Below are positions 6,942-28,872 of a stretch of 30,449 nucleotides of DNA, in pieces (positions within the stretch are counted from its first letter, which is position 1; every line of letters starts with the position of its first letter). The notes under the pieces were generated by a model. It searched no databases and had not been told where the DNA came from. It saw only the letters and a program-made list of their open reading frames with translations. The stretch is taken from the IMG/VR virus record IMGVR_UViG_3300008122_000018, positions 1 through 30,449 of that record; one strand, 5' to 3'. This DNA is from a virus. The position numbers and the translations under genes were made by a program.

Positions 6942-7420
6942 TTATTAATAAAGTCCATAAAATTTTTATGATAATGTTTAATATTATTTCCACCAACTGG
7001 GTTTTTAGTATGAACAAAAATATTCAAATTTTTACATTGAATATCATTATCCATAATATAATCACATAACCACTTTAAACAATCATATCCGGTGTTTTCA
7101 CTGCCGTCATCATTGAAATCTTGAATATCATGATCAAATGAAAAATAAGTATTATTCCAATCTTTAATATATGGAATAATATATTTGAATTCTGCCAATG
7201 TTCTTACAGTAAATTCTGTATGGAAGTCAGGATATTTAATCCATGTTACATCTTTTAAATCGCGCTCATCATCTAAAAATATTAAATTTTTCATTGTAAG
7301 GTCTTCAAAATATGGGGCAAGGCCACAACCTGATGCTTTTTCAGCTCGGGCGTTTAATTCTTCAAATGACATATCTTCAATTTTAGCCAAAAATCGTTTT
7401 GCTAAATCTGCGTCAAACAT
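6935..7420 (-). CDS. cREC domain protein (cyclic-phosphate processing receiver)
   Basis: 161 aa. Residues 43-158 match the cREC type of receiver domain: LDDER (49-53), FDHDIQDF (95-102), TGYD (110-113), and VHTKNPVGGNN (136-146). In response regulators the acidic residues hold a metal and a phosphate; cREC proteins lack the regulator setting and have been proposed, from gene neighbourhoods, to handle cyclic phosphates in RNA repair or nucleotide signalling. Residues 1-42 are a small extra domain with SFEELNARAEKASGCG. ATG 7420 has an AGGA site. First leftward gene after the head region. A macro-domain gene on the same strand at 15815 could belong to the same chemistry. Fold assignment is good; substrate is unknown. 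Confidence 0.8.
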   Translation of the reverse strand: MFDADLAKRFLAKIEDMSFEELNARAEKASGCGLAPYFEDLTMKNLIFLDDERDLKDVTWIKYPDFHTEFTVRTLAEFKYIIPYIKDWNNTYFSFDHDIQDFNDDGSENTGYDCLKWLCDYIMDNDIQCKNLNIFVHTKNPVGGNNIKHYHKNFMDFINKK

Positions 7421-7477
7421 AGTAATGTCCTAAAATAATTTACGTTTAATACGTTCTATAAATGTTTCATCATTTGA

Positions 7478-8107
7478 TTATCTTCTTTTAAAAATACTTT
7501 TTGTAAAAATGCCTTTAATTAAAAAATACATGTATATTACAAAAATAATTTGACCTAAAATTGGTATTAAAAATATTAATTTATTTTTAAATGCTTGACC
7601 AAATTCACGATCCATATATTCTGATAATGTTTCATTAGTGGCGATTATAAAGCACTTACCATCTTTGTCATGCTCAAATGTATATGGTCGATCTAATACT
7701 TTAAGCGAATCCTTAATAATAACATTATAAAAACCCTCTAATAAATCTTTATTCTTTAAATGATGTAATATTTCTTGACCCTTAAGCTTATCAATATTAT
7801 AAAAACATCTAGTTTTATAAAAATTGATGTCAACTTTACATCCATTATTATTAGCCCGGATTAAATGAATAGATATCAATAAATCCCTCATATTAATTAC
7901 AGAAGGATTTATGGATTTTGCAGGCGCAAACGTTTTAAATGAATAGCTATCAGTATCAATATTACCGGTCAAAAAATAAATTGATTCATCTACTTCTTTA
8001 TGATAACCGTAAATAACTGATACAATATCATCTTTAAATTGACTTTTTTCTAAAGCCTTAGCCATATCTAAGTTTTCATATTTAGATTTTAAGTCCAGAT
8101 TCAGCAT
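7478..8107 (-). CDS. Hypothetical membrane-anchored protein
   Basis: 209 aa from ATG 8107, which overlaps the stop of the upstream gene by 7 bases (ATGCTGA), a typical coupling arrangement; a longer frame from 8146 would overlap further and is less likely. The body is soluble. Near the C-terminus a hydrophobic stretch (LIFLIPILGQIIFVIYMYF) forms one membrane segment, followed by a basic KSIFKRR end, so most of the protein would sit on one side of the inner membrane with a short tail. No recognised domain. Member of a leftward run of small genes 7478-9155. Confidence 0.7.
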   Translation of the reverse strand: MLNLDLKSKYENLDMAKALEKSQFKDDIVSVIYGYHKEVDESIYFLTGNIDTDSYSFKTFAPAKSINPSVINMRDLLISIHLIRANNNGCKVDINFYKTRCFYNIDKLKGQEILHHLKNKDLLEGFYNVIIKDSLKVLDRPYTFEHDKDGKCFIIATNETLSEYMDREFGQAFKNKLIFLIPILGQIIFVIYMYFLIKGIFTKSIFKRR

Positions 8108-9620: not shown

Positions 9621-9642
9621 AAAAGGACCTCGAGGTCCTTTT
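9621..9642. terminator. Bidirectional GGACC-type terminator
   Basis: Stem AAAAGGACCT paired with AGGTCCTTTT around a CG centre, between the convergent genes ending at 9618 and 9641; effective on both strands. Confidence 0.85.
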
Positions 9643-10081
9643 AAAATATTAAAGATGTGTAATTAAAATCTATCACTAATGCGGTTATCAATCCATCTGA
9701 ATTTTTACAAGCACTTACATCAATTTGAGTTTGATGATATGGGATTAATGTACTAGCTACCATATATTGAGATGCCAAAACAAATTTTATATTATCTTCA
9801 CGATTTAGTTTAATACCATTACTTCTAAAAAATTTATCGTCGTCCCCAATTACAATATAGCTATTACTATTTGATAAACTGCAATAAATATTTTTTAATT
9901 TTTCAGGGATAAACAATCCATAATGAGGATGATTTAAAATAATTTTAGCAATATTTCTATTGTCGTCATAAAAAATATCACAATTATATTCGCCAGGAAC
10001 ACATAGATAACTATTTTCTACATCATATTCATTTAATTTAGTAGTAAATGAAATACGTTTTTCTAATTGAATAGATAGCAA
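9641..10081 (-). CDS. Hypothetical protein, end of TelA operon
   Basis: About 146 aa. The best start is TTG 10081 because a GGAG site lies 6 bases before it; the frame also opens upstream at TTG 10093, but that codon overlaps the ribosome site. Mixed strand/helix protein with VCVPGEYNC-like early turns (YLCVPGEYNCDIFYDD), a GDDDKFF segment and a C-terminal IDVSACKNSDGLITALVIDF stretch. No recognised family. It is 56 bases downstream of telA, behind a perfect 34-base palindrome that may limit read-through. Confidence 0.6.
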   Translation of the reverse strand: MLSIQLEKRISFTTKLNEYDVENSYLCVPGEYNCDIFYDDNRNIAKIILNHPHYGLFIPEKLKNIYCSLSNSNSYIVIGDDDKFFRSNGIKLNREDNIKFVLASQYMVASTLIPYHQTQIDVSACKNSDGLITALVIDFNYTSLIF

Positions 10082-10092
10082 AATGAACTCCA

Positions 10093-10126
10093 AAAAATGG
10101 GATAATAATATTATTATCCCATTTTT
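10093..10126. terminator. Perfect 34-base palindrome between telA and next gene
   Basis: Arms 10093-10109 and 10110-10126 are fully complementary (AAAAATGGGATAATAAT and its complement) with no spare loop. It has T-runs on both strands, so it can act as a terminator after telA. It ends at the Shine-Dalgarno/start region of the 10081 gene and could also affect its translation. Confidence 0.7.
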
Positions 10127-10137
10127 ATTAATTTAAA

Positions 10138-11439
10138 TTATTTTTTCATTGCGATACGTTGGCTATCGGTTTTGACAATCTTTTTATAATTGTCTTGTAA
10201 GTCTTTTAAGCGAGTAACTGCTTTTTCACGCTCACTCACACCCTGTTGCTGAATTTGAATTACTTCATTAACAGTTTTAATTAATGTACTTTGTACATAT
10301 TCTAACGTTGATACGTCAATAACTGAACGTTGGTTTGCTTTAGCCGTACTTACAGAGTTGGTGTGCAATAAGTCCGCATTACGTTTAAGAATTTCATTTG
10401 TAGCGTCATCAATAGTATTCGCTAATTGAACACTATTCTTTTGCTCATTCAATGAAATCGCAAGTGTAATCTGGTTTTTCCATGCTGGAATCGTGATATT
10501 TTTGATTGCATAGAACTTATCAACAAGCATCAAATTGTTTGCTTGAATAATACGAATCATTGGCAATGTCTGTAATGCTGATTGCTGTAATACATGAAGA
10601 TCGTGTAAACGCTTTTCTAAGTTATTACAAACATGGTTCAAGTCATAAATGCGTTGAATTACATTTTGATCTTGTTGATTGCCATTAGATAAATCTTTAA
10701 TTTCGTCTTTAAGTTCTTGTAACTTTAAATGACCAGCTGCAATATGTAGACCTAATGAACGATAATCATTGTTTACATTGTCAAACATATTATCGAGTAA
10801 GTGGACACGATTAGTAAGGCCAGATTGATTTGTTTCAATTTCACTTACAAGCGCTTTAATTTGTTCTTCTGTAGTATTAAATTTAGTTAAGAAATTATTA
10901 CGAGCTTTTTCAACAGATTTAAATAATCCACCAATAATTGGTAAGCGCGAAAATGAGCTTTGTTTACCAATAAAGTTACTGCTATTAATACCTTTAGCTA
11001 CATGAATAACTTGGTTTAATTTTTCGCCGGTTTGATCAATGTCTTTATTGTTTACTAAACCCAAAATTTCTGATGTACAGTCATTTGTAGCTGATGAAAT
11101 ATCTTTACCATATTCAGCAACTGCTAATGCATCCATTGGACCTAATTTATTTTTTAGTTCCATTACATCTTTTACATCAGCGTCGGTCAAGCCAAGATCA
11201 ACCAAATTCAATTTTGATGCAGCAAGATCCAAATTTTTAACTGCCGGCAATGCGGGTTCTTCATTTACCGATTTAAGAATTTGATTATTTACATCTTGCT
11301 GAATAGCAGATGGCTCGTCTGCAACAATAACGTCCACTTTACCAGTCTCAGTCTGAGACATAGCTGCACGCTCTTTCAATAATTTTTCTAGTAAAGCGTC
11401 GGTTTGTTCTTTATTAAGATCGTTAATTGATGATACCAT
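10138..11439 (-). CDS. telA: TelA-family (toxic anion resistance) protein
   Basis: 433 aa with the layout of the TelA/KlaA family: a variable, acidic N-terminus (1-150), LPIIGGLFKSVEKARNNFLTKF near 170, a long helical middle with LHIAAGHLKLQELKDEI, then LPMIRIIQANNLMLVDKF from residue 292, IPAWKNQ at 317-323, NEILKRNADLLHTNSVSTAK and a final VIDVSTLEYVQSTLIKT...IQQQG helix. Bacterial relatives are linked to tellurite, cell-envelope antibiotic and metal stress, but the biochemical role is unknown. All-helical, cytosolic. It sits in a coupled leftward operon with a diverged TelA-like gene and has its own promoter at 11474-11506. The family call is confident; a phage function is unknown. Confidence 0.9.
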   Translation of the reverse strand: MVSSINDLNKEQTDALLEKLLKERAAMSQTETGKVDVIVADEPSAIQQDVNNQILKSVNEEPALPAVKNLDLAASKLNLVDLGLTDADVKDVMELKNKLGPMDALAVAEYGKDISSATNDCTSEILGLVNNKDIDQTGEKLNQVIHVAKGINSSNFIGKQSSFSRLPIIGGLFKSVEKARNNFLTKFNTTEEQIKALVSEIETNQSGLTNRVHLLDNMFDNVNNDYRSLGLHIAAGHLKLQELKDEIKDLSNGNQQDQNVIQRIYDLNHVCNNLEKRLHDLHVLQQSALQTLPMIRIIQANNLMLVDKFYAIKNITIPAWKNQITLAISLNEQKNSVQLANTIDDATNEILKRNADLLHTNSVSTAKANQRSVIDVSTLEYVQSTLIKTVNEVIQIQQQGVSEREKAVTRLKDLQDNYKKIVKTDSQRIAMKK

Positions 11440-11473
11440 GATACATATTCCATTTAGGTTTTAAGATAAAACA

Positions 11474-11506
11474 AATATACCATAAAGAAGTATATTTGTA
11501 TATACA
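11474..11506 (-). promoter_or_regulatory. Early-type promoter for telA
   Basis: Minus strand: perfect TGTATATACA box (11506-11497), 17-base spacer, TATATT (11479-11474), 35 bases before the telA start. It lies between the 11511 gene and telA, so telA can be expressed without the upstream genes. Confidence 0.75.
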
Positions 11507-11510
11507 TATT

Positions 11511-13046
11511 TTACAATAAATTATAAACTTTGTTAAATTCATCATTATTGATTTTCATATTCATTTCAATTGCAGGTTTTAAGATTTTTTCAATCGCTGT
11601 AAACTTGTCAATCAAAATACCAATATTGTTTTTAGCTAGCTCATATTGCATTGCTGTTGTACGTGACAATGTTTGAGCCGCCAATAAATCATTTTTTCGT
11701 CGTAATAAACGTTGCTTATCACTATCCGAATATTGATCATCTTGCATATAAGATTCTAATAATTTGATATCTTCATCAAATTGTGTATGTAAATCTTTTA
11801 ATGAATCATATAATTTAGCAAATGATTCATATTGATTGGATAATACAGTTACTAAATTACTTCCTTTGTCTAATAAATTTTCGAAGTCAATAACTGCAAT
11901 TGTAATATTGGCCTTAATTTCAATGTCTGATTTAAATATTTTGCCCCAAAAGCCAATAGTAGAATACTTTTTATATTTTTCTACTGCAGATTTAAGATTT
12001 ACAATTACACTACTCATTCTTTCCAGGTTATCACTAGTAATTTCCATGGTAATTGTATTCATTTTATCGATAGTTGTCACACCAACTGCAAAAATACCAG
12101 TATTTGTATCCATATCTATTTCAGCCTTTTCTATTTGTTCATCAACAACTGTATTGTCGGGCTCTTTAAAAGTACCCATTAAGTTGTTATATTGTAGACT
12201 GTTTATAATAAGTTCGTACATACGCTGGCTAACATAAAACTTAATTATTCTATCAAATAATTTTTTATGTTGCTCATTTAGCATAAAGTAGTCATATTCA
12301 ATACATCTTAATATAGAAAATCTAATAGCAGATAAATCAGTAGATCCACCTGTCATGTATATAAATGGAAGATACTTATTTTGATTTAAAATAGATTCTA
12401 TCTTATCTGGTCTAATGTCATCATTTAAAAATTCAGATATAAAGTTACAGTAATCGATGAGGCCTTTATAGTCATCATTTACATAAAATCTTAAATTAAT
12501 GATATCATTAATAATAGCAATATGTTTATGTAAATCCCTACTTCTAGTTTGTCGTAAATTTTGTACATATCTTGAAATATATTTTGCATTATAGCCGAAG
12601 CCACTAATTGTATCTAAATTTTTAAATATGTCATATAGTGAAAGTGTGTTATACGTGTGAAAATATGAAATTGCTTCCGTGGTAGGCGTTGTTTTATACA
12701 TTGGCAAACTTAAAACAAAATCTTTGCTTATAAGTTTTGAAAATATATGATATGTATAAATTTGATTAATATAATTGCGATATATTGTATTATTGACACG
12801 ATTTAAATCTTCTGAACTAGTCGTTAAACAATATTTTAAAATTAAAGCCATACGTTTATGTAATGAGCTATTATCATCATACGAAATCGGATTTACAACA
12901 GCTGCATAAATATCACCTACGGATGGTTTTATATCATCCGATATCGAATTAAAATGATATTCAATTTTGTCAGTCAAATAAAAGTTTTCATCACGAATAT
13001 CGTAATGTATAAAAGATAGAAAATAAAAATATACATGCATATTCAT
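11511..13046 (-). CDS. TelA-like paralogue with novel N-terminal domain, C-terminally shortened
   Basis: 511 aa. The C-terminal 190 residues repeat the TelA pattern: GFWGKIFKSDIEIKANI (compare GGLFKSVEKARNN in TelA), a helical middle, then from about 448 LRRKNDLLAAQTLSRTTAMQ, NNIGILIDKFTAIEKI and KPAIEMNMKI, aligned with TelA ANNLMLVDKFYAIKNITIPAWKNQITL. The protein stops about 15 residues later, so the last 110 residues of TelA are missing. The IPAWKNQ signature is lost (KPAIEMN). Residues 1-310 are a Tyr/Ile-rich domain that I do not recognise. ATG 13046 has an AAGG site and follows the 56-aa gene by 10 bases. I infer a partner of TelA from a duplication, now diverged. Confidence 0.72.
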   Translation of the reverse strand: MNMHVYFYFLSFIHYDIRDENFYLTDKIEYHFNSISDDIKPSVGDIYAAVVNPISYDDNSSLHKRMALILKYCLTTSSEDLNRVNNTIYRNYINQIYTYHIFSKLISKDFVLSLPMYKTTPTTEAISYFHTYNTLSLYDIFKNLDTISGFGYNAKYISRYVQNLRQTRSRDLHKHIAIINDIINLRFYVNDDYKGLIDYCNFISEFLNDDIRPDKIESILNQNKYLPFIYMTGGSTDLSAIRFSILRCIEYDYFMLNEQHKKLFDRIIKFYVSQRMYELIINSLQYNNLMGTFKEPDNTVVDEQIEKAEIDMDTNTGIFAVGVTTIDKMNTITMEITSDNLERMSSVIVNLKSAVEKYKKYSTIGFWGKIFKSDIEIKANITIAVIDFENLLDKGSNLVTVLSNQYESFAKLYDSLKDLHTQFDEDIKLLESYMQDDQYSDSDKQRLLRRKNDLLAAQTLSRTTAMQYELAKNNIGILIDKFTAIEKILKPAIEMNMKINNDEFNKVYNLL

Positions 13047-13056
13047 GATAATTGCC

Positions 13057-13227
13057 TTATGATTTACGAATTTTTGATACGTCTAACTTTTTAATTTTTT
13101 CAAGATGGTCTGACGCATTAATTGCGTCTAAAAGATTATTTGCGGCTCGATTGCTACGATTAATCGCTTGCTTTAAAATAATTGGACCAGCCCCAATCGC
13201 TTGCATCATATTATATGTACTATTCAT
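13057..13227 (-). CDS. Small operon protein (56 aa)
   Basis: Starts at ATG 13227, overlapping the upstream stop by 4 bases (ATGA), and ends 10 bases before the TelA-like gene. The 56 aa start MNSTYNMMQAIGAGPIILKQ and are an amphipathic helical protein with many Asn, Lys and Ala (AINRSNRAANNLLDAINASD). No family recognised. The close coupling on both sides makes it a real gene of the TelA operon. Confidence 0.7.
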   Translation of the reverse strand: MNSTYNMMQAIGAGPIILKQAINRSNRAANNLLDAINASDHLEKIKKLDVSKIRKS

Positions 13228-13649
13228 TTTGATAAATCCCGTGCTAGTTTAGCCATTTTATTTTTAAAAGCCATATCATAAAGAGCTTCCGACGTTTGAC
13301 CATATTTTTTAGTAATTAACGTATGAGCCTTAATAATTGCTTCTTCATAAGTATAACCGCCACAATCAAGGTCTGTATCATGGGTTAAAGCAAACTTACG
13401 ACCTTTTGTATATGCATATTCACTACTAGGAACGCTCCAATCAATTTCAAATGGGACTAATACTTCTACCCAATATTGTAAGGTATCATTTAAAGATGCA
13501 TCATCTTCAATGCGATTAGTTTTTTTGCAAATAAGATGAGGATCAATTAAAACAATAATTGTCTCTTCTGGATAAGCAAACAGAAATTTGTGGTGGTTTT
13601 TAAGTTCCCACTCTTTTTTAATAAAGTCTTTAATTTCATCAATAGTCAT
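13224..13649 (-). CDS. Hypothetical protein, first gene of TelA operon
   Basis: About 141 aa from ATG 13649 (MTIDEIKDFIKKEW). The frame opens further upstream, but the promoter's -10 box at 13684-13679 places the mRNA start downstream of those codons. Helical N-terminus, an aromatic strand part (YWVEVLVPFEIDWSVPS), a conserved-looking CGGYTYEEAIIKAHTLI and a Lys-rich helical end. The GGYTYEEAI segment is typical of small phage accessory proteins. No function assigned. Its stop overlaps the next start (ATGA). Confidence 0.68.
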   Translation of the reverse strand: MTIDEIKDFIKKEWELKNHHKFLFAYPEETIIVLIDPHLICKKTNRIEDDASLNDTLQYWVEVLVPFEIDWSVPSSEYAYTKGRKFALTHDTDLDCGGYTYEEAIIKAHTLITKKYGQTSEALYDMAFKNKMAKLARDLSK

Positions 13650-13678
13650 AATAAAAAAGCTCGCTAAAATGTATATAC

Positions 13679-13707
13679 ATAATAACAAGCTTTTTTATAT
13701 TTGTAAA
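13679..13707 (-). promoter_or_regulatory. Early-type promoter of TelA operon
   Basis: Minus strand: TTTACA (13707-13702) followed by AATATAAAA, 17-base spacer, TATTAT (13684-13679), with ATG 13649 30 bases on. A TGTATATACA palindrome overlaps the start of transcription (13670-13679) and may be a control site. Confidence 0.7.
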
Positions 13708-15814: not shown

Positions 15815-16258
15815 TTAAACATAATAAACGACAATTTCTAAATCTGGTGTAACTTCATTAATAATTTGTTGAATTGTAGCCCAATCGCCGCCAGCAAGAC
15901 CTGCACCAATACGAGGTATACATGCAGTTTTGCCTTTAAAGTCTTCATTTAATAATGCGAATCCTTTTCGAACAGCGTCATAATCTACTTGAATTTGATG
16001 TGTACCAAAATCATATTGTGTATATAAGTTAATTACAGTACCAAATTCTGTTACAGCCATTGAATAAAGACCAAGCTTATTTTTTGTACCAATTGGAGTT
16101 TTACAATCTGCTTGATAAGCATTAGGGTATCTGTATTTTACAATAGCCGCGATTCCCCCTCCCATGGTATGGAAGCAATTACAACCATGTACTAGTATAT
16201 CATATTCTTTCTTTTCAAACGGTACAAATAAGTTTTCTTTAATTTCAGCAACGATCAT
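15815..16258 (-). CDS. Macro-domain protein (ADP-ribose-binding, phosphatase-like)
   Basis: 147 aa from ATG 16258, chosen because an AGGA site lies 8 bases before it (a TTG at 16276 is in frame but contains that site). Macro-domain signatures: DILVHGCNCFHTMGGGIAAIV near residues 19-39, with the Asn and Gly-rich loop that hold ADP-ribose, and IPRIGAGLAGGDW near 113-125, the phosphate loop. This version resembles the Poa1p-like ADP-ribose-1''-phosphate phosphatases seen in several T4-like phages. Likely role: removing the phosphate from a tRNA-processing by-product or reversing ADP-ribose signals in host defence. Fold is confident; substrate not. Confidence 0.88.
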   Translation of the reverse strand: MIVAEIKENLFVPFEKKEYDILVHGCNCFHTMGGGIAAIVKYRYPNAYQADCKTPIGTKNKLGLYSMAVTEFGTVINLYTQYDFGTHQIQVDYDAVRKGFALLNEDFKGKTACIPRIGAGLAGGDWATIQQIINEVTPDLEIVVYYV

Positions 16259-16277
16259 GTGTTTTTCCTGGACCAAC

Positions 16278-16311
16278 TATAATAATATATATATAAGCAA
16301 TTATATCGGAG
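16278..16311 (+). promoter_or_regulatory. Promoter -10 and ribosome site for 16319 gene
   Basis: TATAAT at 16278-16283 and GGAG at 16308-16311, 7 bases before the GTG start. The divergent macro-domain gene shares this 60-base AT-rich gap. Confidence 0.5.
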
Positions 16312-16318
16312 ATACATA

Positions 16319-16891
16319 GTGATTAACATAGAAGATTTTAAAAAAGAACATTCTACAAATATGAAAAGGCTGAATGAGTATCTAAATGATGATTTAATGG
16401 GACCTATAGCAGAATGGATTATGCAAGAAAAAGGTAATCCATTAGTTTGGATGGATCCTAACTATTATAATCAAATGCGAACTTTAGGCGGTCTTATCAG
16501 CATTTTACATAATATTCAACATGCTCTTGTGGATGATGGAGAAATGTGCTTTCCAATTGTTGAAGGTGAGCAGCAGCTTCGATTCATTGATAAATGGGAT
16601 TATATTCGTGATAATGGTGAGCCTGACGCCTGGGCAGAAGATATTTATGATTTCATTGAAAATATCGAAATAATCCATCGTGAATGGTTACGTAACGCTT
16701 TTGCGTTTGATGCAGCTGATATTGGGATTGAATCAGCGATGGATCAATATTTATCACGATATGCAGACTTTGATCCAGCCTGGGGAACTGAGATTTTAAT
16801 GCTAAAACGCATTCATATCAAAGCTAAGTTAAGAAAAAAATTACAATTAATAAATGAACGGAAGGCTAAAAATAATGATCCACAAGTATAG
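16319..16891 (+). CDS. Hypothetical protein
   Basis: 190 aa, GTG start at 16319 with GGAG 7 bases upstream. Acidic, helical protein rich in Trp, Asp and Glu (MGPIAEWIMQEKGNPLVWMD, DNGEPDAWAEDIYDFIENI). Ends in a Lys-rich helix (LKRIHIKAKLRKKLQLINERK). No known domain. First gene of the rightward right half; its 3' end overlaps the next start by 17 bases. Confidence 0.68.
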   Translation: MINIEDFKKEHSTNMKRLNEYLNDDLMGPIAEWIMQEKGNPLVWMDPNYYNQMRTLGGLISILHNIQHALVDDGEMCFPIVEGEQQLRFIDKWDYIRDNGEPDAWAEDIYDFIENIEIIHREWLRNAFAFDAADIGIESAMDQYLSRYADFDPAWGTEILMLKRIHIKAKLRKKLQLINERKAKNNDPQV

Positions 16892-17240
16892 TTATGGCAA
16901 AGGATATAGCACTGTTGATATAGAAGTTTATGAAAAAGAACTTATTATTAAAAGTGATGAATACGGTTACTTCTTACAATTTGATAAAGGTGACGAATTC
17001 TTAAACATTCTTGAACTTATAGAAATTAACTTTGCTAAGAATGAATGGGGTCAACATACAGAGACTTATTTTAAACAGGAATTAGAAGCTTTTAAGATAT
17101 ATTTTGATATAAATGTACCTCATCATGCATATACTATTCAAAGCCTTGCAGATGAAGATCATCGTTTGTGCGTATCATTGAATGAATGGAATGAATTTTT
17201 AGCTACTTTATATACAATTCGTGAAGATTTATTCAGATAA
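16875..17240 (+). CDS. Hypothetical protein
   Basis: 121 aa from ATG 16875 (MIHKYSYGKGYS), with a GGAAGG site inside the end of the preceding gene; the longer frame from 16854 lacks a site. Strand-rich N-terminal half (STVDIEVYEKELIIKSDEYGY), then helices. The LQFDKGDEFLNILELIE part is typical of small phage proteins without assigned function. Translationally coupled to 16319-16891. Confidence 0.62.
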   Translation: MIHKYSYGKGYSTVDIEVYEKELIIKSDEYGYFLQFDKGDEFLNILELIEINFAKNEWGQHTETYFKQELEAFKIYFDINVPHHAYTIQSLADEDHRLCVSLNEWNEFLATLYTIREDLFR

Positions 17241-17242
17241 TA

Positions 17243-17273
17243 TGTGTACTTATGTACGTACATTTATTATAAT
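17243..17273 (+). promoter_or_regulatory. Promoter with repeated TGTAC boxes
   Basis: TGTGTACTTATGTACGTACA (17243-17262) precedes TATAAT (17268-17273); another ACGTACA lies at 17276. The -10 box places the mRNA start near 17280, which favours ATG 17309 for the next gene. Confidence 0.55.
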
Positions 17274-17308
17274 ATACGTACATTATGACTAAACACAAAG
17301 GTGTTAAA

Positions 17309-17644
17309 ATGACAGACTATCCTGAAGGAACAACCCATAAAAATCCTTGGCTAAATCGTCATGGTTCAACTTGTTTTGAATGGTTTAAGATTGATCCGGA
17401 AACTGGTGAAGTTTTCCAATGGTATACTCCATATATGGAAGATCAACCACGTTGGGCACCACCTTTATCACAAATGGTTAGTCGCGAAACATGGCACAAG
17501 ACTTTAATTCCAGTTGAACAGGAATGTAAATTGGAACCAAAGCCTTGGCATAAAGCGTCATATTTATCGGGTGGTATATCTAAAGCTTATGACCGACCGG
17601 AAAACCCTTATTACCCTAACAGTAAAGGATATCAAGGAGATTAA
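17309..17644 (+). CDS. Hypothetical Trp/Pro-rich protein
   Basis: 111 aa from ATG 17309 (MTDYPEGTTHKNPW). An ATG at 17285 is in frame but is at the predicted transcript start without a ribosome site, whereas AAAGGTG lies 6 bases before 17309. Rich in Trp, Pro and Tyr (NPWLNRHGSTCFEWFKID, DQPRWAPPLSQMV), ending in a Tyr/Pro-rich, probably unfolded tail. No family recognised. Converges with the next gene; the stop codons share bases. Confidence 0.65.
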   Translation: MTDYPEGTTHKNPWLNRHGSTCFEWFKIDPETGEVFQWYTPYMEDQPRWAPPLSQMVSRETWHKTLIPVEQECKLEPKPWHKASYLSGGISKAYDRPENPYYPNSKGYQGD

Positions 17645-18413: not shown

Positions 18414-18438
18414 TCGATTGAGAATGACAGGAGCAAAC

Positions 18439-19686
18439 ATGAATAATCAAATTTCAGATTTGAAATTTCAAATAACACAACTGCAGCAATCTATTAAAGA
18501 TTTAGATGATGAGTGTGAACGATATTCAGCAATGGAACAAGCCGTAAAGATTGTTTTAAACGGTGGATATGGAGCATTAGGAGCAGCTGCATTTAGATGG
18601 TATGACGAAACAATTGCGGAAGGTATTACTGCAACAGGCCGTGTCGGAATACAATATATTACTAAAAAAATTAATGAATTTGTAAATGAGAAAGCCGGAA
18701 CAGCCGGCATCGACTATGTTGTAAGTTCTGATACAGATTCAGTTTATTTTGAAGTTGACGCAATTGTAAAACATAGATGGCCAGAAGTTACCGATAAACA
18801 GCAAATTACTGATTTAGTAAATGAATTTGCTGAAAATGAAGCTGGACCATATATTGATCAATGCTATAAAGATCTTTCCGATTATCTAAATTGCGACGTA
18901 AATTTATTAGATATGAAGCGTGAAGCAATTGCGGATACATTTATTATCAGGGCTAAGAAAAATTATATCATGCGAGTATTTGATAATGAAGGAATTCGTT
19001 ATGCTGATCCGTATTATAAAATGATGGGTATTGAAGTTGTTCGTACATCGCACCCACAAATGATTCGTGACGCTTTAGAGGATACTTTAAAGATGGTAAT
19101 TGAAGGATCAGTTGAACAAGTTCGATCATATGTAAAAGAATTTAAAACTAAATTCATGAGTTCACCATTAAATCAAATTGCTGCACCCCGTGGTATATCT
19201 GATATTACCAAATATATGAATAGTGAAGATTATTCAATTAAAGAATTTGAATATGTTACTAATGAATTTGGTAATAAAGTTAAATCTAAAATTACTATTC
19301 CAATTCATGTAAGAGCAGCTATTAATTATAATTACCTAGTTAATAAATATAAGTTATCAAATAAATTTGAATTTATTAAAAACGGTTCTAAAATTAAATT
19401 TTTGCCATTAAAAGAGCCTAATCCAATTAAGAGTCATGTAATTGGATTTATTGATAATATTCCATCTGAATTTGGCTTAGACGAATATATTGATAAAGAA
19501 GCTCATTTTAATAAAATGTTTATTAGTCCGTTAGAAACTTTTTTAATTTATAACGGATGGACAATCCAGGAAAATACATTATTAGATATGTTTGGTGGAC
19601 AAGAAATTGATATGGCTACTGCAGCAATTAATACAAAGAAAAAGACAATAAAGAAAGTCGATAAAAAGACAACTTCATTGTTTTAA
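18439..19686 (+). CDS. 43: DNA polymerase gp43-like, C-terminal part (split gene)
   Basis: 415 aa equal to the last part of T4-type family B DNA polymerase. ATG 18439 has GGAG 5 bases upstream. A helical leader (1-30) is followed by motif B, with Lys37, Asn41 and Tyr44-Gly45, and by motif C SSDTDS with catalytic Asp98 and Asp100. Then come AKKNY (compare KKRY), MMGIEVVRTSHPQ, the thumb with FHVR-like IPIHVRAAINYNYLV and LPLKEPNP, and near the end NTLLDMFGG plus TTSLF, clamp-binding-like. Exonuclease, motif A and the first finger helix are absent. The matching N-terminal part starts at 29766, 10 kb downstream, so the break is in the tip of the fingers. Followed by uvsX, as expected for gene 43 in T4 order. 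The enzyme must assemble from two chains. Confidence 0.93.
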   Translation: MNNQISDLKFQITQLQQSIKDLDDECERYSAMEQAVKIVLNGGYGALGAAAFRWYDETIAEGITATGRVGIQYITKKINEFVNEKAGTAGIDYVVSSDTDSVYFEVDAIVKHRWPEVTDKQQITDLVNEFAENEAGPYIDQCYKDLSDYLNCDVNLLDMKREAIADTFIIRAKKNYIMRVFDNEGIRYADPYYKMMGIEVVRTSHPQMIRDALEDTLKMVIEGSVEQVRSYVKEFKTKFMSSPLNQIAAPRGISDITKYMNSEDYSIKEFEYVTNEFGNKVKSKITIPIHVRAAINYNYLVNKYKLSNKFEFIKNGSKIKFLPLKEPNPIKSHVIGFIDNIPSEFGLDEYIDKEAHFNKMFISPLETFLIYNGWTIQENTLLDMFGGQEIDMATAAINTKKKTIKKVDKKTTSLF

Positions 19687-27678: not shown

Positions 27679-28872
27679 ATGAACGTTATTGTAATTGGTG
27701 CTAATTATGGCGACGAAGGTAAAGGTAGAACTGTTGATTTTTTAGCACAGACGCTTAAAATTAATCAAGATAAACAATTGATAAATGTACGATTTTCTGG
27801 TTCAAATAATGCGGCCCATACAGTATGGCATAACGGTAAATCATTTGTATTTCATCTATTAGGCGCCGCATCATTCCGCGGATTACCTACATATTTGAGT
27901 CAACATGTTGTAGTTGATTTTGTTGCACTAGAAACAGAAATTAATGAATTTGAAAAAATTACTGGTCATAAACCAGTCGTTTATGTCGATCCGAGTTGCC
28001 GTGTTAATTTGCCATACGATGTAATGAAAAATCGTATTAAAGAAATTCTTAAAGGCGCTGATAAACATGGTTCAACCGGTAATGGTCTAAATGAAACTAT
28101 TGATCGGCATCAAAGTTTTCCAATTTTAGCTGGCATATTTGAACTTGCATTACCTATGTTAGTTCTCACACAAAATCATTTTCAACAATTTGCTGAAACT
28201 GAGTTAAAGGATATTGAATTAGAACATCAACATAAAGACTTTATTGAATTTTTATGTGAGAAAAATTCAGTATCTTTTATTTTTGAGAAGATTAAAAATA
28301 TCATTAATAATCATCCTCAAATTATATGCTATACGCCTGAACTTAAAAATTATAATTGTATCTTTGAAGGGAGTCAAGGACTCGCTTTAGATGAATATAG
28401 CAAATTTTTCCCTCATGTAACTCGTACTCGTACAGGTACAACAAATGTAATAGATTTATGCCGTGAGCATGATATTGTAATTGACAATGTATATTATGTA
28501 TCTCGTCCATATTTCAGCCGTCATGGAGCTGACAAATATTTTGAAGAGTTTGACCGAATTAGCGACGTTTATAATATTGTAGATGAAACTAATATACCAA
28601 ATGACTGGCAAGATGATTTAAAATTTGGTATTTTAAATGTAACTGAAATGGATGAACGTATTAATGACGACTTTAAAGTTATTAAAAATTTATTCCCAAA
28701 TGTAAATAAGCAGCTGGTGTTTACTTGTATGGATCAATGCGGCGGTGGGTCTGGTATTTATATTCGTAACGGTCGACTATATCAAACAAGCGATCTAATA
28801 AATTCATTAAATTTATATTATAGATTTAGTGATATTAAACCAATATTTTTTAACAATAAGGAAAATATATAA
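27679..28872 (+). CDS. Adenylosuccinate-synthetase-like enzyme (PurA/PurZ superfamily)
   Basis: 397 aa. PurA joins IMP and aspartate using GTP; the related phage PurZ acts on dGMP for the Z (2-aminoadenine) pathway. Visible: GANYGDEGKG (7-16) with the base Asp12 and Lys15, NNAAHT with His47, HGSTGNG (130-136, PurA IGTTGRG), FEGSQG, FPHVTRTRTGTTN, YYVSRPYFSRHGAD and FTCMD (PurA TKLD). The Arg-rich aspartate loop of PurA (TTGRxRRxG) is replaced by NDWQDDLKFG. Asp12 is kept, whereas known PurZ has Ser or Thr there. So the nucleotide may be IMP- or GMP-like and the amino acid partner may differ. Single TAATG overlap with the next gene. Confidence 0.85.
   Translation: MNVIVIGANYGDEGKGRTVDFLAQTLKINQDKQLINVRFSGSNNAAHTVWHNGKSFVFHLLGAASFRGLPTYLSQHVVVDFVALETEINEFEKITGHKPVVYVDPSCRVNLPYDVMKNRIKEILKGADKHGSTGNGLNETIDRHQSFPILAGIFELALPMLVLTQNHFQQFAETELKDIELEHQHKDFIEFLCEKNSVSFIFEKIKNIINNHPQIICYTPELKNYNCIFEGSQGLALDEYSKFFPHVTRTRTGTTNVIDLCREHDIVIDNVYYVSRPYFSRHGADKYFEEFDRISDVYNIVDETNIPNDWQDDLKFGILNVTEMDERINDDFKVIKNLFPNVNKQLVFTCMDQCGGGSGIYIRNGRLYQTSDLINSLNLYYRFSDIKPIFFNNKENI

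Follow-up and report, generated by a model that had tools for sequence, protein, structure and literature searches.

A T4-like jumbo phage encodes a TelA protein of the KlaB type that is directly preceded by a strongly diverged KlaA-type partner. We assume that this klaA-telA pair, in which KlaA carries an extra N-terminal part, acts jointly under the inner membrane in envelope protection or exclusion; taken as a whole, this reading has in our estimation an even chance of being correct.

The window, i.e. the whole stretch of DNA that was analysed, is a 30.4-kb virus record (30,449 nucleotides) with T4-type genes. Its gp23 capsid protein is 55% identical to that of Stenotrophomonas phage Moby, and an S77 prohead protease, UvsX and a piece of a family-B DNA polymerase are also encoded. 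A near-identical contig of 381 kb (IMGVR_UViG_3300011242_000001, referred to as the sister phage) spans the region, and the window is therefore regarded as part of a jumbo phage. A megablast search of its first 25 kb against phage records gave no match; the host is probably Acinetobacter or a relative. The polymerase piece (18418-19686, plus strand, just before UvsX) comprises only 422 residues (PF00136, E 2e-11), and the gene may be split or its call incomplete. The minus-strand gene at 15815-16276 encodes a protein of the macrodomain type that matches the model of the DarG antitoxin below threshold (NF048014, E 9e-10) and could possibly counter a DarT-like DNA ADP-ribosylation by the host. 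The adenylosuccinate synthetase-like product of 27679-28869 on the plus strand (PF00709, E 3e-36) scores far under the cut-offs for PurA and PurZ; it appears to be a divergent family member and may be of interest with regard to base modification.

The following features were assigned in and around the operon:

10093-10126, no strand assigned: terminator-like hairpin just 3' of TelA (pattern match on the plus strand)
10138-11439, minus strand: TelA (KlaB-type), 433 aa (PF05816, E 4.7e-80; phrog_5890)
11511-13046, minus strand: 511-aa protein, extended KlaA-type partner of TelA (KlaA profile; one match in 99 Acinetobacter genomes)
11559-12026, minus strand: KlaA-like domain, residues 341-496 of the 511-aa protein (HMM alignment, AlphaFold model)
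12117-13046, minus strand: unique N-terminal region, residues 1-310 (no relative beyond the sister phage)
12537-12944, minus strand: patch variable against the sister phage, residues 35-170 (pN 0.08-0.12, pS 0.15-0.27)
13057-13227, minus strand: 56-aa small ORF, ATGA-coupled to 13224-13649 and 10 bases ahead of the 511-aa gene
13224-13649, minus strand: 141-aa small gene, phrog_16370, no function assigned (internal ATG start; 154 aa from TTG)

The identity of TelA, already named in an earlier sequence-only reading of this DNA, is certain (269.6 bits against a Pfam gathering cut-off of 30). The gene arrangement described there was likewise recovered: the 511-aa ORF lies directly upstream on the same strand, separated from telA by 71 bases that leave room for separate expression of TelA, and the two small genes upstream are coupled by an ATGA overlap followed by a spacing of 10 bases. 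The probable end of the operon is the hairpin after TelA, which has a symmetrical stem with a T run on the minus-strand side too. Since this hairpin comes after TelA, the gene at 9641-10093, whose FdtA match lies right at the cut-off, is disfavoured as a member of the operon. No klaC membrane gene was present downstream of TelA in the window. KlaC was not matched in the 381-kb sister record either, a record that is possibly incomplete, while the positive control was recovered; for TerC and TerD, too, the sister phage gave no match in searches that were positive in control genomes. The TelA of the window is 56-59% identical to Acinetobacter TelA and clusters in a tree with the bacterial, Acinetobacter-type proteins, apart from the TelAs of the other phages described below. 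Because of support values of 82/88 and long branches, this placement carries modest weight.

The C-terminal domain of the 511-aa protein is, with high confidence, a KlaA domain. A profile built from 71 KlaA proteins (the gene upstream of telA in L025, a Comamonas MAG, was excluded as not visibly KlaA) matched residues 341-496 in one colinear alignment with 26.7 bits, compared to 5.8 bits for the best of 500 shuffled sequences. The TelA profile reached 6.0 bits (best of 500 shuffles 5.4). Comparison of the last 201 residues by hhalign gave 86% (E 5.8e-7) with KlaA versus 2% with TelA, shuffled and reversed controls being at most 0.12%, and a second profile comparison yielded 64% over 157 columns (E 6e-5) for KlaA versus 5% over 47 columns for TelA. 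BLASTP against TelA (E 0.009) was suggestive only. When the full-length 511-aa protein was used as an unbiased query against 99 Acinetobacter genomes, the sole match (E 9.3e-5), in one genome, was a KlaA gene directly before telA. The protein was unrecognised in Pfam, PHROGs and NCBIfam, and Pfam TelA (PF05816) gave no match at E values up to 1 and did not reach its gathering cut-off; plasmid KlaA scores above the PF05816 cut-off. When an Acinetobacter KlaA alignment was run against the sister phage, the first pass returned no candidate, but full profile scoring does show the match.

The KlaA and TelA families are also related to each other (hhalign 96%, E 1.3e-9). The NN..DKF.AI pattern that the sequence-only reading had seen in the 511-aa protein and TelA is present in both; as was also stated there, the IPAW signature is replaced by LKPAI, and the protein ends about 19 residues later and thus lacks the last ~110 residues of TelA. 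Such a short C-terminus is characteristic of KlaA. Close to the end of the hairpin, KlaA proteins carry a P-x-W motif (PAW in Acinetobacter), the tryptophan of which is invariant in 30 Acinetobacter KlaA proteins and is lost in the PAI of the phage protein. Typical KlaA proteins have ~260 residues and no extra domains, a size from which the 511-aa protein clearly departs. The loss of the PAW tryptophan and the N-terminal extension of ~300 residues are particular to this phage gene, and by its sequence the protein would best be described as a variant rather than a typical KlaA.

TelA proteins occur in many bacteria, on plasmids and in jumbo phages. The closest bacterial TelA loci were found in 66 Acinetobacter loci and one Comamonas MAG. 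A gene of 258-284 residues stands just before telA in all 66 Acinetobacter loci and matches plasmid genes annotated KlaA; a gene of ~305 residues follows telA in 65 of them, the exception being a contig end. The order klaA-klaB(telA)-klaC was read in five plasmid loci (IncP, IncHI2). The 511-aa gene occupies the position of KlaA, immediately upstream of telA and in the same orientation. TelA had been taken to be usually single, which is wrong in view of KlaA in 66 of 66 Acinetobacter loci; neighbouring partners were also present in the five plasmid loci and in one Gram-positive xpaC-telA pair. An exception to the klaA-telA order is the Comamonas MAG (L025, 4158-6041), whose TelA is ~60% identical to that of the window and is preceded by an unrelated-looking 244-aa gene and no KlaA. 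The KlaA family is known from the RK2 kilA operon, its homology to KlaB/TelA was published in 2017, and KlaA, KlaB and KlaC are all required for FiwB inhibition, i.e. the inhibition of IncW plasmid transfer (PMC5696584).

Structure models are compatible with, but do not prove, a shared fold of the 511-aa C-terminus and TelA. The AlphaFold model of TelA features long antiparallel helices at the C-terminal end (172-252 and 258-371), and that of the 511-aa protein a helical hairpin (363-434 and 440-498), the only part predicted with confidence. A fold search with the TelA model recovered viral TelA proteins (E 1e-8) and nothing significant in the PDB, and no solved structure matched TelA by sequence. 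For the 511-aa model there was no significant viral match, and the PDB matches were generic helical hairpins only, so that structure does not decide homology.

In agreement with the sequence-only claim that the 511-aa protein has a new N-terminal part of ~310 residues, searches of phages, plasmids and viral contigs and of Pfam, PHROGs and PDB sequences gave no relative of this region, with the sole exception of the sister phage. Window and sister phage agree in every one of the last 201 residues of the 511-aa protein, and TelA shows a pN of 0.002 between them, while residues 35-170 form the variable patch listed above. The raised pS of this patch points to local recombination and weak constraint, and positive selection is thus not demonstrated. 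Further patches of raised divergence, at 7400-7700 and 16200-17600 of the window, resemble the N-terminus of the 511-aa gene and look like recombination islands. Divergence is also uneven within the pair: the phage KlaA domain is 20-25% identical to Acinetobacter KlaA, TelA 56-58%. In bacterial pairs with a TelA identity of 55-60% the KlaA identity is 45-54% (three pairs only). Either the phage KlaA has changed fast or the KlaA-like gene and TelA have different origins, and the partner may have another role.

TelA is preceded by a probable partner in other jumbo phages as well. In RaK2, 121Q, GAP32, BF, XbC2 and Kaldavass a gene of phrog_13312 (371-424 aa) lies directly before TelA, and XaC1 has a shorter relative at the same position; this adjacency was read in seven loci, and phrog_13312 is present in 41 phage records. 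Genes of phrog_13312 before TelA, with no function assigned, are:

L082, 2039-3229
L083, 2110-3225
L084, 1904-3031
L077, 2491-3747
L078, 2546-3706
L087, 1919-3193

The C-terminal part of phrog_13312 matched a combined KlaA/TelA profile with 89% (E 2e-6; reversed control 5%) and KlaA alone with 61%; single-sequence scores were mostly within the range of shuffled sequences. This C-terminus is probably KlaA-like. If so, TelA is not standalone in jumbo phages of the RaK2/GAP32 type, contrary to a 2021 survey that listed it as such in gammaproteobacterial jumbo phages (PMC7824862). The 511-aa protein itself had no phrog_13312 among its PHROG matches (hhalign at most 3%). Narrow viral scans with TelA patterns added nothing.

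TelA has been proposed to be a component of a sub-membrane structure that bars the entry of phages or xenobiotics, possibly a tool of jumbo phages against superinfecting phages (PMC7824862), and a Listeria TelA mutant shows a higher sensitivity to nisin (PMC12791056). For the present phage we assume that two related helical proteins, the KlaA-like protein and TelA, would work together beneath the inner membrane of the infected cell. Such joint action of the 511-aa protein with TelA is the part of the model that we hold to be fairly likely. The assembly might protect the envelope or exclude competing elements, by analogy with the TelA/Ter proposal and KlaABC, a role for which we see the odds as balanced. 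The N-terminal region of the 511-aa protein would be the specificity part that sets what the assembly binds. A mixed assembly with the 511-aa protein as adaptor, close to the mixed filament or ring of the sequence-only reading, is plausible and would fit both the genetics of KlaABC and the helical-hairpin models. Against this mechanism counts that KlaC, which is needed in the plasmid system, is absent from the matches in the sister phage; the phage pair could possibly use KlaC of the host.

Other explanations of the gene pair have to be weighed against this model. The sequence-only reading had regarded the 511-aa protein as a copy of the phage's own TelA that lost its C-terminus, gained an N-terminal domain and forms the mixed polymer with TelA. 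The shared motif and the weak BLASTP match would be accounted for in this way, and a TelA-related C-terminal domain does exist, KlaA itself being TelA-related. A private duplicate was nevertheless rejected because KlaA fits far better in both profile scoring and hhalign, and because the gene order is that of klaA-telA; we regard this origin as highly improbable, and the relationship noticed as true but old. The pair could also be cargo that gives the infected host tolerance to metals or peptides, since kilA-telA-telB serves as a tellurite-resistance marker in work on A. baumannii (PMC12540391) and the Listeria TelA mutant is 2-fold more sensitive to tellurite (PMC12791056). The kilA-telA-telB cassette, however, comprises three genes, the sister phage yielded no match to KlaC, TerC or TerD, and an Acinetobacter strain with published klaA and klaB (L044) is tellurite-susceptible (MIC 2 ug/mL), so that we consider a resistance cargo unlikely.

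We deem it just as unlikely that the 511-aa protein is a decoy, which would bind the host KlaABC complex via its KlaA-like hairpin and redirect or inhibit it. The strong divergence, the loss of the PAW tryptophan, the added variable N-terminus and the presence of klaABC in the hosts of the closest TelA would all be in line with such a decoy, but the phage keeps a well-conserved TelA, a finding more in keeping with a functional pair than with a pure inhibitor. Returning to the joint action of KlaA and TelA, a more general version can be formulated, though we would call it rather doubtful: KlaA-type proteins might recur in jumbo phages as adaptors within TelA assemblies, where an N-terminal domain particular to each lineage (~300 residues here, ~150 in phrog_13312) on a KlaA/TelA hairpin would re-target a shared sub-membrane assembly and diversify fast, as in an arms race.

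With a KlaA-type partner here and, probably, in phages of the RaK2/GAP32 group, TelA becomes a two-component system open to testing, and the N-terminal parts particular to each lineage mark a possible seat of target specificity. The pairing of klaA with telA and the homology of KlaA and KlaB are already known, and the phage pair is not a new kind of system. New are the ~300 N-terminal residues with their fast-diverging patch, a KlaA domain whose divergence far exceeds that of TelA, the sister phage in which no KlaC was detected and the probable KlaA-like nature of phrog_13312. With klaA-klaB(telA)-klaC (kilA-telA-telB) of IncP and IncHI2 plasmids and Acinetobacter chromosomes the phage shares a co-oriented KlaA-type gene immediately upstream of TelA and a TelA that is 56-59% identical to the Acinetobacter protein; it differs in that no KlaC was found and in its KlaA, which is longer by ~300 residues, lacks the PAW tryptophan and is 20-25% identical. 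In the phrog_13312-TelA pairs of RaK2-, 121Q-, GAP32- and BF-type phages the gene immediately before TelA likewise encodes a protein whose N-terminal part is its own and whose C-terminal part is probably KlaA/TelA-like, but that protein is shorter and shows no relation to the 511-aa protein that could be detected by sequence, and TelA is just 22-26% identical. The TelA-TerC-TerD sets of Caulobacter and Brevundimonas phages are similar in that TelA is phage-borne, whereas its neighbours are TerC, TerD and a putative vWA-like protein (our own reading of the sequence), with no KlaA-type gene. The xpaC-telA (yaaN) pairs of Gram-positive bacteria have XpaC as the partner and, like the phage pair, represent a two-gene set with TelA, with an envelope-stress phenotype in Listeria.
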